NCBI RefSeq assembly: GCF_000455125.1
Contig: NZ_AUWR01000011.1
Location: 62,001 to 126,000 of the forward strand
Length of the DNA stretch: 64,000 nt
Source of the DNA: Mycobacterium sp. UM_WGJ
GTDB taxonomy: Bacteria; Actinomycetota; Actinomycetes; Mycobacteriales; Mycobacteriaceae
Direction: 5' to 3'
A program made the translations under genes and the position numbers. The notes below the pieces were generated by a model. The model did not search any database and was not told the DNA's origin. It was given only the letters and a program-made list of their open reading frames with translations. This document shows positions 13,042 to 36,740 of this stretch, piece after piece (the stretch's first letter is position 1; the number at the start of each line of letters is the position of its first letter).

Positions 13042-13238
13042 CGATCCACCAAAGACCGTCGGTCACCGAGCAATCGGTTGAAGGTCCGGGAACATCCCGG
13101 CGGCCCACGCAGGAGGACGAGGCACCGGCACCGCCGGCACACATTGTGACGCCCCGACCGCATCCTGCGTCGGGGCGTTCGTTATTTCCCGGGTGGAGCA
13201 AAACTTGAGACAACAACAGCGACACCGAGGAGGTATGC
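13042..13238 (+). promoter_or_regulatory. rplJ (L10) mRNA leader with attenuator
   Basis: A 200-base untranslated leader precedes rplJ. It contains a small hairpin CCGGG-AACAT-CCCGG and, at 13149-13178, a perfect 10-bp stem ACGCCCCGAC/GTCGGGGCGT followed by a T-rich stretch (TCGTTATTT), which looks like an intrinsic terminator 50 bases before the gene. L10 leaders that bind L10-L12 and attenuate transcription are known in many bacteria. That this leader works so is inference from structure and position. Confidence 0.6.
13149..13187 (+). terminator. Attenuator-like terminator within the rplJ leader
   Basis: Ten perfect base pairs (arms 13149-13158 and 13169-13178), a ten-base loop and a following T-rich tract. 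It sits after the promoter and before rplJ, so it can only act as an attenuator or as an end for upstream readthrough. Confidence 0.6.
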
Positions 13239-25258: not shown

Positions 25259-25279
25259 GGTGTCCGGTCGCGGCGCCGG

Positions 25280-25285
25280 TAGGCT
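25280..25285 (+). promoter_or_regulatory. -10 box (TAGGCT) for leaderless endonuclease IV
   Basis: TAGGCT fits TANNNT and ends 7 bases before the GTG at 25293, so the transcript is expected to begin at or next to the start codon. The box overlaps the end of the upstream gene by position only (stop at 25258). Confidence 0.55.
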
Positions 25286-25292
25286 GGCCGCC

Positions 25293-26051
25293 GTGTTGAT
25301 CGGATCCCATGTGCGCCCGCAGAATCCGCTGGCGGCCGCGGAAGCCGAGGGCGCCGATGTGGTGCAGATCTTCCTCGGTAACCCGCAGAGTTGGAAGCCG
25401 CCCAAACCGCGCGAGGACGCGGCGCAACTTCGCGCGGCGGCGCTGCCGATCTATGTGCATGCGCCGTATCTGATCAACGTCGCCTCGCCGAACAACCGGG
25501 TGCGCATCCCGTCGCGCACCATCTTGCAGCAGACCTGCGAGGCGGCCGCTGACATCGGCGCGGCCGCGGTGATCGTGCACGGTGGCCACGTGACGGCCGA
25601 CGACGACGATCCGCAGGCCGGGTTCGCGCGGTGGCGCAAGGCGCTGGACCGTCTGGAGAGCACCGTCCCGGTGTACCTGGAGAACACCGCGGGGGGTGAC
25701 TATGCGATGGCCCGCCACTTCGACACCATCGCCAAACTGTGGGACCACATCGGTGACACCGGCGTCGGGTTCTGCCTGGACACCTGCCACACCTGGGCGG
25801 CCGGGGAATCGCTGCCCGACGCTGTGGAGCGCATCAAGGCGATCACCGGCCGCATCGATCTGGTGCACTGCAACGACTCCAAGGACGCGCCCGGCTCCGG
25901 ACGGGACCGGCATGCCAACTTCGGTGACGGCCAGATCGACCCCGACCTGTTGGTCGCCGTGGTCGAGGCCGCCGGTGCCCCGGTGATCTGCGAGACCGCG
26001 GAGGAGGGCCGCAAGGCCGACATAGCGTTCCTGCGCGATCGGCTCAGCTGA
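25293..26051 (+). CDS. nfo: Endonuclease IV (AP endonuclease, Nfo/End)
   Basis: Endonuclease IV incises DNA 5' of abasic sites in base-excision repair and uses a trinuclear zinc centre. The 252-residue product shows MLIGSHV at the N-terminus, [58 protein letters not shown] and ICETAEEG, covering the expected zinc ligands. I start at GTG 25293 because the protein family begins at (M)LIGSHV and a -10 box sits 7 bases upstream; a start at 25260 would add 11 unconserved residues. It corresponds to end (Rv0670). The lpqP gene that follows in M. tuberculosis is absent. Confidence 0.93.
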
Positions 26052-26202
26052 CTTGGACCCCGGGGCTCCGACCGGGAAAAAACATCCGAAATGTCTGATT
26101 TATCACGCAATGGGCGACATTGGGTCGGATGTGTGCTACAACTTTCCTAGGCGCCGTGACCGCGGCAGCTGCGCACACGTCTCAGGGCTGGAGGGGGTCC
26201 AA

Positions 26203-26250
26203 ATGCCTGAGCGACACCAGCATGGTGTGGGGGGAGTGCGCAGCACCTAG
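26203..26250 (+). CDS. Candidate 15-residue leader peptide
   Basis: ATG at 26203 follows GGAGGGGG with 5-6 bases of spacing, a near-ideal ribosome-binding site, and opens a 15-codon frame (MPERHQHGVGGVRST) ending in TAG at 26248. The frame lies inside the two hairpins of the structured RNA, so a translating ribosome would melt them. The peptide has two His and two Arg residues but no run of one amino acid. Translation is not proven. Confidence 0.4.
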   Translation: MPERHQHGVGGVRST

Positions 26251-26267
26251 TCCGGCGCCCCAAAACG

Positions 26268-26320
26268 ACGGCGGTCACAGCCTGGAACCTCCCGACCCCA
26301 GGCCGTGACCGCCGTTTTTT
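26268..26320 (+). terminator. Strong intrinsic terminator upstream of fadE8
   Basis: Eighteen positions (26268-26285 with 26298-26315) pair with a single mismatch around a 12-base loop, followed by a run of six T. It is one of the strongest terminators in the window and the only one followed by a clear T run besides the one after rplA. Confidence 0.9.
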
Positions 26321-26340
26321 GTGTGCTGACATCAGTTTTA

Positions 26341-26377
26341 TTACATCTATTGTGCATGCGTGCAAAAAATGTAATAT
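26341..26377 (+). promoter_or_regulatory. Leaderless fadE8 promoter with overlapping dyad operator
   Basis: A -10 TAATAT (26372-26377) ends 6 bases before the fadE8 ATG, with a -35-like TTGTGC at 26350-26355 (16-base spacer). The promoter is covered by an imperfect dyad: outer arms TTACAT (26341-26346) and ATGTAA (26369-26374), with inner TTG/CAA symmetry. This is a plausible repressor site for a fatty-acid-responsive regulator. The TetR or PaaX-like proteins nearby are candidates only by position. Confidence 0.6.
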
Positions 26378-26383
26378 GCGGCT

Positions 26384-28024
26384 ATGGCCGATACGCACAT
26401 CGTCACCAACCAGGTCCCTCCGCTGGAAGGCTACAACCCGGCGTCGTCCCCGGTCCTCATCGAGTCGCTGATCCGCGAGGGCGGCCAATGGGGCGTCGAC
26501 GAGGTCACCGACCTCGGTGCGATCTCGGGATCCAAGCAGGTGCAACGCTGGGGCGCGCTGGCCGACCGCAACCGGCCGGTGCTGCACACCCACGACGTCG
26601 TCGGTAACCGGATCGACGAAGTGGAGTACGACCCGGCCTACCACGAGCTGATGCGCACCGCGATTGCCCACGGCCTGCATGCGGCCCCATGGGCCGACCC
26701 GCGACCCGGCGCACATGTCGTCCGCGCCGCGCAAACCGGGGTGTGGACCGCCGAGCCGGGCCACGTCTGTCCGATCTCGATGACCTACGCGATCGTGCCC
26801 GCGCTGCGCAACAACGCCGAACTCGCCAAGACCTACGAGCCCCTGCTGACCAGCCGGGTCTACGACCCCGAGTTGAAGGTGCCGGCCACCAAGGCCGGCA
26901 TCACCGCCGGGATGTCGATGACCGAAAAGCAGGGCGGCTCCGATGTGCGCGCCGGTACCACCCAGGCGGTGCCGAACGCTGATGGCAGCTACACCCTGAC
27001 CGGGCACAAGTGGTTCACCTCCGCCCCGATGTGCGACGTGTTCCTGGTGCTGGCGCAGGCTCCCGGCGGACTGAGCTGTTTCTTCCTGCCCCGGATCCTG
27101 CCTGACGGCACCCGCAACCGGATGCGGCTGCAGCGGCTCAAGGACAAGCTCGGCAACCACGCCAACGCCTCAAGTGAGATCGAGTACGAGGGCGCGACCG
27201 CCTGGCTGGTGGGGGAGGAGGGCCGCGGGGTCTCGGTCATCATCGAGATGGTCAACCTCACCCGCCTGGACTGCGCGCTGGGCAGTGCCACCAGCATGCG
27301 GATGGGACTGGCTCGCGCCAGCTACCACGCCCAGCACCGCAAGGCGTTCGGCGCTTACCTGATCGACCAGCCACTGATGCGTAACGTGCTGGCCGACCTG
27401 GCGGTGGAGGCCGAGGCCGCCACCATGGTGTCGATGCGGATGGCCGGCGCCACCGACAAGGCGGTCCGCGGAGATGAACGGGAGGGCCTGCTGCGCCGGA
27501 TCGGGCTGGCAGCCACCAAGTATTGGGTATGCAAGCGCGCCACCCCGCACGCCGCCGAGGCGATGGAATGCCTGGGCGGCAACGGCTACATCGAGGACTC
27601 CCTGATGCCGCGGCTCTACCGGGAGGCACCGTTGATGGGCATCTGGGAAGGTTCGGGCAACGTCAGCGCCCTGGACACCCTGCGCGCCCTGGCCACCCAG
27701 CCCCAATCGGTGGCCGTGCTCTTCGATGAGCTCGCCGAGACCGCCGGCCAGGATCACCGCCTCGACGCCCACGTCGACGCGTTGAAAGCCCGGCTGGCGG
27801 ACCTGGGCGCCGACGTGGTCGCCGCCCAGTACCAGGCGCGCAAGATCGCCGAGGACATCTGCCTGGCGTTGCAGGGCGGGTTGCTGGTCCGCCACGGCCA
27901 CCCGGCCGTCGCCGAGGCGTTCCTGGCGACGCGGCTCGGCGGCCAATGGGGTGGTGCGTTCGGCACCCTGCCGGCCGGCCTCGACCTCGGGCCGATCATC
28001 GAGCGTGCCCTGGTCAAGGGCTGA
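26384..28024 (+). CDS. fadE8: Acyl-CoA dehydrogenase FadE8 (AidB-like)
   Basis: A 546-residue flavin-dependent acyl-CoA dehydrogenase of the larger AidB-like branch. Recognisable segments are MTEKQGGSDVRAGTTQA (flavin/substrate loop), GHKWFTSAPMCDVFLVLAQA, LGNHANASSEIEYEGA and the C-terminal LGGNGYIEDSLMPRLYREA with IWEGSGNV. It oxidises an acyl-CoA to the 2-enoyl-CoA. It corresponds to fadE8 (Rv0672). The ATG start is fixed by a -10 box 6 bases upstream, implying a leaderless mRNA. echA4 follows 14 bases later, then a PaaX-like regulator and echA5. Confidence 0.9.
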   Translation: MADTHIVTNQVPPLEGYNPASSPVLIESLIREGGQWGVDEVTDLGAISGSKQVQRWGALADRNRPVLHTHDVVGNRIDEVEYDPAYHELMRTAIAHGLHAAPWADPRPGAHVVRAAQTGVWTAEPGHVCPISMTYAIVPALRNNAELAKTYEPLLTSRVYDPELKVPATKAGITAGMSMTEKQGGSDVRAGTTQAVPNADGSYTLTGHKWFTSAPMCDVFLVLAQAPGGLSCFFLPRILPDGTRNRMRLQRLKDKLGNHANASSEIEYEGATAWLVGEEGRGVSVIIEMVNLTRLDCALGSATSMRMGLARASYHAQHRKAFGAYLIDQPLMRNVLADLAVEAEAATMVSMRMAGATDKAVRGDEREGLLRRIGLAATKYWVCKRATPHAAEAMECLGGNGYIEDSLMPRLYREAPLMGIWEGSGNVSALDTLRALATQPQSVAVLFDELAETAGQDHRLDAHVDALKARLADLGADVVAAQYQARKIAEDICLALQGGLLVRHGHPAVAEAFLATRLGGQWGGAFGTLPAGLDLGPIIERALVKG

Positions 28025-36703: not shown

Positions 36704-36740
36704 CGAAAGCCCCCTTCCCCGCGTGGGAAGGGGGCTTTCG
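36704..36740 (+). terminator. Terminator after tuf
   Basis: CGAAAGCCCCCTTCCC (36704-36719) pairs perfectly with GGGAAGGGGGCTTTCG (36725-36740) around a five-base loop, followed by TGTTTGG. Confidence 0.9.

Follow-up and report, generated by a model that had tools for sequence, protein, structure and literature searches.

The window analysed here, a stretch of 64,000 nt, lies on contig C11 of the source genome (G000), an assembly of 4.47 Mb over 116 contigs. Within it, the gap between end (25260-26051), whose product is an AP endonuclease-type TIM barrel according to Pfam, and fadE8 (26384-28024), whose product is an acyl-CoA dehydrogenase with an AidB-type N-terminal domain, holds a series of features on the plus strand. 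Read in order, a conserved box is followed by a promoter, by a folded leader that contains a frame of 15 codons, by a terminator of 18 positions with a T6 tract, and by a separate promoter for fadE8. The nearest named relatives, judged by FadE8, are M. longobardus (95%), M. nonchromogenicus (94%), and M. engbaekii and M. algericus (92%). The AidB-type N-terminal domain, here in a gene called fadE8, was assigned to PF18158 (E 6.9e-53).

The promoter of the intergenic element (26114-26142) consists of a -35-like GCGACA (26114-26119), a 17-nt spacer with GTCGG, and an extended -10 region, TGC-TACAAC, with its hexamer at 26137-26142. By consensus we take it to be sigma-A-like, and transcription would be expected to start at about 26149. 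The succession of GACA, GT[TC]GG, TGTG and a -10-like hexamer, a pattern drawn from the same sequences, recurs in 22/22 genomes carrying the element. Upstream of this promoter, alignment delimits a box resembling ACATCCGnnnTGnCTGATTT (26082-26101), a possible regulator site; the 36 nt 5' of GACA have a mean pairwise identity of 0.56 in the 22 genomes, against 0.24 further upstream. A wider promoter regulon was considered and dropped: GACANNNNGTYGGNNNTGTG matched 17 times in 10 genomes, six of these matches being the element itself, compared with 8 for a reversed control.

The second promoter (26350-26384) lies directly 5' of fadE8 and 3' of the terminator, where the preliminary description had placed it, with TTGTGC at 26350-26355, TAATAT at 26372-26377 and the ATG at 26384. 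This position is consistent with a leaderless fadE8 start, which is read from the sequence and not mapped. The last 45 nt before the ATG have a mean pairwise identity of 0.74 in 21 genomes. The same region (26340-26384) holds TTACA...TGTAATAT, and a similar TTACA...TTG...TAAC was seen by eye 5' of fadE8 in species without the element (L010, L045, L051, L024); the arrangement looks like an operator belonging to fadE8 itself.

Nested stems, a repeated 11-mer, a frame of 15 codons and a strong terminator had been listed for this gap in the preliminary description. Direct reading found each of them in place, and all four named stems occur in the predicted fold. The 5' leader domain (26149-26260), delimited by folds, pair counts and alignment, is closed by GGCGCC/GGCGCC. 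Inside it, a small hairpin UGGA-GGGGG-UCCA (26189-26201) is predicted around the Shine-Dalgarno-like GGAGGGGG (26190-26197), just 5' of a putative micro-ORF of 15 codons (MPERHQHGVGGVRST, stop TAG) at 26203-26250. The 11-mer GCCGTGACCGC has two copies, one at 26153-26163 and the other at 26302-26312, within the 3' arm of the terminator. The terminator hairpin (26268-26320) has arms at 26268-26285 and 26298-26315, which pair over 18 positions with one A.C mismatch, a C-rich 12-nt loop AACCUCCCGACC at 26286-26297, and T6 at 26315-26320. The 180-nt stretch folds with a z-score of -5.05 (0/200 dinucleotide shuffles as good), the terminator alone with -5.90 (0/200 shuffles) and the leader alone with a modest -2.02 (8/200 shuffles); the strength of the whole fold is owed mostly to the terminator. 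A scan with loops of up to 8 nt also rated the hairpin 26268-26315 as terminator-like on the minus strand of the window, with a T4 tail that, by eye, the other subclade does not share.

The distribution of the element was assessed in 396 genomes of the genus, in its GTDB-sized circumscription. A covariance model built from 12 sequences (R1) found the element in 22 of them, our own included (E <=7e-13). A hairpin-only model built from those 22 (R2) returned the identical 22 at E <=1.8e-14 and others only at E >=4.8e-5. DNA searches gave matches in 13/198 genus genomes at E <=0.001, at least one of them by chance, and in 4 of 61 genomes, the source genome being counted in both cases. The matches in G047 (L004) and G153 (L097, 22 bases) look like chance, with no End or FadE8 homologue and, by eye, no terminator. 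At lax thresholds, R1 matched 36/396 genomes (E <=0.1), 14 of them at E 6.4e-5 or worse, and eight weak loci (L121-L128) proved to have neither end nor fadE8. R2 matched 33/396 genomes (E <=0.01), 11 of which have E >=4.8e-5; in 18 weak loci (L151-L168) TCCCGA was seen by eye only in L153, without a T-tract. Across the order, R2 matched 16/200 genomes, including four known carriers, and the best match outside these (G561, E 2.8e-7) is a hairpin with another loop.

In all 22 carriers the element stands 5' of fadE8, and in 21 of them end was found upstream of it, the 1.5 kb flank in G154 lacking end. The four nearest named relatives are the named carriers, and blastn over 80 named FadE8 loci likewise found the element in four (L005, L006, L007, L009). 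A DNA tree of FadE8 with 43 rows was built from the 22 carriers and 21 element-free rows hand-picked among the 80 named loci. All carriers group together in it as a single clade (100/98); the nearest branches outside, with weaker support (91/62, 86/89), are M. acidiphilus and M. trivialis, in both of which the same gap lacks the element. This distribution agrees with the element having been gained once, in Mycolicibacter. Between end and the element, G022 has a gene, presumably lpqP-like, that weakly matches an esterase/PHB depolymerase (L002:666-1499); it is absent from the window.

Conservation within the element is highest in the terminator hairpin. Mean pairwise identity over the 22 genomes is 0.91 for the loop, 0.85 for the hairpin, 0.78 for the core promoter and 0.56 for the upstream box; the 12 nt following TGTG have 0.63, the spacer behind the terminator 0.41 and the region further upstream 0.24. 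In the 22-row alignment, 97.9% of the cells of the terminator stem are paired and two-sided changes occur at 4/18 pairs, values reached by 0/500 shuffles on either measure; a third covariation measure, that of further pair types, was reached by 31/500. These counts draw on all 22 sequences (21 distinct), those given below for the leader and the alternative helix on 12. One row of the alignment (A1, row L089) begins one base late, which affects no count. On this changing stem the loop core UCCCGA is identical in 22/22 carriers, AACCUCCCGAC is found in 18/22 loops, and, by eye, the full 12-nt AACCUCCCGACC in 17/22. G097 and G250 have a shortened loop, the stem being extended inward by complementary CCTGAA/TTCAGG, and CUCCCGA still lies in the loop. 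G102 and G396 carry GCAUCCCGAA in place of ACCUCCCGAC, so that CCUCC is lost in two of the 22 and cut short in G097. A constant C-rich motif, the core UCCCGA, is held in the loop of a variable stem.

For comparison, other terminators of the window were sought; simple scans gave weak stems only, and a purpose-made scan gave two strong intergenic hairpins, both of which were followed. The one near 36736, 10 kb away, has nine different loops in 11 genomes. The other follows rplL (near 13178), and its apparent loop and stem are both unchanged in the 8/8 genomes where it was found (10 fetched). Since the rplL hairpin keeps its loop too, a constant loop is not unique to the element; among the three hairpins compared, only the one upstream of fadE8 combines a constant loop core with a covarying stem. 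The rplL hairpin (13148-13178) has arms GACGCCCCGAC/GTCGGGGCG and an apparent loop CGCATCCTGC, was unchanged in 8 of 10 relatives (those in which the region was found), and lies between genes that we take to be rplL and rpoB; it is perhaps a processing or attenuation site.

The comparison bears on the idea that the promoter-terminator pair only shields fadE8 from upstream transcription, as an insulator whose RNA has no function. The strength of the hairpin, its position 5' of fadE8 in 22/22 carriers and the constant loop of one of the two comparison hairpins agree with such a role. We nevertheless regard it as improbable, given that insulation would call for neither a promoter within the element nor a constant loop, and that the comparison terminator near 36736 varies its loop freely. 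Moreover, in M. longobardus the element no longer adjoins fadE8 and its loop is still unchanged.

The leader domain is present in 19/22 carriers and reduced or lost in three. Its fold shows two-sided changes at 9/39 pairs in 12 sequences, which 2/500 shuffles reach. In M. longobardus (G205) the leader is shortened and different, and in G375 and G316 the promoter runs almost straight into the hairpin, giving about 80 nt in total with no leader or frame. On the tree, leader and frame would most simply have been lost twice, once in M. longobardus and once in G375/G316.

The preliminary description had raised the possibility of a dual-function RNA. In such an RNA, a peptide of 12-15 residues would be made and have its own role beside the RNA. 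The layout of the frame speaks for this idea: start and stop lie at aligned places in 15/22 carriers, and four of the seven carriers whose frame length is unlike that of the window differ by whole codons. A purine-rich run precedes the start in most carriers by eye, and in 12 ungapped rows frame 0 is without stops, as opposed to frames 1 and 2, which contain them. Conservation of the peptide was not significant: column shuffles equalled its similarity in 297/2000 cases for 12 of the 22 carriers and in 229/2000 for seven representatives, and in the 12 ungapped rows third codon positions do not vary more than first positions. The frame is shifted in G198, G401 and G356, where the start is present and the end lies in another frame, the start codon is lost in G016, and the domain is absent in G205, G375 and G316. 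The micro-ORF may be translated, and we consider a separate function of its peptide somewhat unlikely.

Leader-peptide transcription attenuators combine a micro-ORF, alternative pairing and a terminator, and all three parts can be drawn in the window species. Under this scheme a ribosome on the micro-ORF would open the 5' stem, GCCGTGACCGC would pair with the 5' arm of the terminator, and transcription would read through into fadE8. The alternative helix of the window is predicted at -23.1 kcal/mol, a strength that 0.005 of the shuffles attain, the micro-ORF ends just 5' of the 3' strand of the closing stem, and the element and fadE8 occur together in 22/22 carriers. However, the parts are not conserved together. 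The alternative pairing beats shuffles in 9/22 genomes, where at most 0.035 of them do as well; G016 is a marginal case at 0.185, and the remaining genomes (12, at >=0.305) show no advantage, so that 13/22 remain within shuffles. Little covariation is seen in this helix in the 12 sequences used for its pair counts. The nine genomes form one subclade, that of the window, where the upstream 11-mer is a possible partner of the terminator 5' arm; even there the terminator surpasses the alternative helix by 8 to 17 kcal/mol. G375 and G316 have neither leader nor frame, and the frame of the window has no run of a single residue beyond GG. Between the terminator and fadE8 lies a conserved promoter belonging to that gene, and a YefM/YoeB pair on the opposite strand separates element and fadE8 in M. 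longobardus. This pair is formed by genes for a YefM antitoxin and a YoeB toxin according to Pfam (L005:1865-2394, minus strand). Because the relatives vary in leader and switch pairing, keep promoter and terminator, and include one with an intervening toxin-antitoxin pair, the attenuator or riboswitch proposed in the preliminary description was not supported, and an attenuator of fadE8 appears very unlikely to us.

A ligand-sensing riboswitch of an undescribed family would agree with the compact folded leader, which covaries to some extent. It would, however, have to do without that leader in the three carriers where it is reduced or absent and would precede a gene with its own promoter 3' of the terminator. 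Neither the window nor the loci of 10 of the 22 carriers gave an Rfam match at the gathering score, and we find such a riboswitch hardly credible. At a lax threshold (E <=5, 26050-26390) there were three Rfam matches, each on the minus strand and well short of its gathering score, with 6C not among them; two were to microRNA families (the better with E 5e-4 and 28.4 bits, where the gathering score is 90), the third was to HBV-epsilon, and all were set aside.

What all carriers share is a promoter and an intrinsic terminator of the element's own, conserved as a unit, and the natural short forms keep only these two. The free small RNA that the preliminary description had offered as its other reading thus gained ground, with the promoter conserved in 22/22 genomes and the terminator covarying. 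We consider it probable that the element is an autonomous transcription unit. With less assurance, we lean towards reading it as an autonomous small-RNA gene that belongs to one mycobacterial clade, Mycolicibacter, and whose terminator loop acts in trans. A similarly guarded preference applies to the terminator loop as a base-pairing seed, which presupposes autonomous transcription. We posit that the promoter is active and that transcription would stop at the terminator hairpin, releasing an RNA that would measure about 172 nt in the window and, by alignment, about 80 nt in the shortest relatives. The released RNA would then act in trans: its loop AACCUCCCGACC, with the core UCCCGA, could pair with purine-rich Shine-Dalgarno-like sequences such as UCGGGAGG in other messages and hinder their translation. 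The 5' leader and micro-ORF would be an accessory domain, dropped by two lineages. A simple anti-Shine-Dalgarno role is weakened by G102 and G396, which carry GCAUCCCGAA for ACCUCCCGAC, and the proximity to fadE8 in 22/22 carriers counts against a purely trans-acting RNA, which would not need it.

Target searches covered 14, 3 and all 22 of the 22 carriers, the last together with four non-carriers, and yielded no convincing conserved target. In the 14 genomes, exact 11-base complements fell at shared places in only two pairs (L190/L170 and L185/L188), and all four sites lie inside long open frames and not at gene starts. In three genomes UCGGGAGG precedes an ATG 11, 14 and 15 times, one orthologous start being common to all three and two to two of the three. 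A 20-base site shared by three genomes was discarded as a gene start, with no ORF of more than 17 codons from its ATG. The best candidate is a gene that we presume to be mddA-like. It was located in 20 carriers, and in 10 of these TCGGGA precedes the start; this start shows no matching change in G102, G097 and G250, and G396, which has an altered loop, still has TCGGGAGG.

The leader might also bear on the loop directly. In a self-masking arrangement, a G-rich run of the leader would pair with the C-rich terminator loop and hide it, and translation of the micro-ORF would free the loop for other messages; species without the leader would then have an always-open seed. The G-rich run lies within the micro-ORF in five of the seven sequences tried first and at its Shine-Dalgarno sequence in two, and duplexes of -9.3 to -17.3 kcal/mol are predicted in 19/19 leaders. 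The duplex beats 95% of shuffled leaders only in 4/19, more than 5% of them being as good in the other 15. Because of this control we lowered an already slight expectation further, and hold the arrangement to be extremely improbable.

No description of the element was found in the literature searched on mycobacterial and Mycolicibacter small RNAs, a search that mostly did not extend to subscription journals. A survey of mycobacterial non-coding RNAs used Rfam and M. tuberculosis non-coding RNAs (PMC9569102), and on that basis would probably have missed the element. The best reading is that of a clade-specific small RNA with a C-rich loop and no Rfam match, for which several described systems offer partial parallels. 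The C-rich loops of B11 (6C RNA) are reported to bind guanosines in the 5' UTR of eccB4 (PMC10470900, PMC9569102); six consecutive guanosines are the proposed partner, and mutants of the loops were assayed (PMC10470900). B11 is likewise a mycobacterial small RNA with C-rich loops; it has two such loops, whereas the element has one, with CCUCCCGA, and no Rfam match. Unlike 6C RNA, the element was found in a single clade of the genomes searched. The alpha-r14 family of rhizobia, with NfeR1, is reported to have variable stems and an ultraconserved unpaired CCUCCUCCC anti-Shine-Dalgarno motif (PMC10746234). The likeness lies in stems that vary while an unpaired C-rich motif stays constant. Those RNAs have three such hairpins and belong to another phylum, whereas the element has one, with CCUCCCGA as its motif, within the terminator loop. 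In LhrC of Listeria and other Gram-positive CU-motif small RNAs, CUCCC/UCCC loop motifs, one of them in the terminator loop, are reported to recognise target messages (PMC4691137). The element shares a CUCCC/UCCC motif in the terminator loop; LhrC, in that account, has three redundant motifs, and the likeness is one of motif.

A drawing of an attenuator that is attractive in one genome can prove to be a feature of one subclade, as the alternative pairing in this gap illustrates. The carriers form a natural deletion series of long, medium and roughly 80-nt forms, in which a single origin fits the tree and one loop core is kept in 22 genomes. To our knowledge, seeds are known for few mycobacterial small RNAs, and we know of no recognised Hfq in mycobacteria. 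If the small-RNA reading is right, the element would offer a convenient case, in such organisms, for studying how a C-rich-loop small RNA arises and which of its parts is the functional one.
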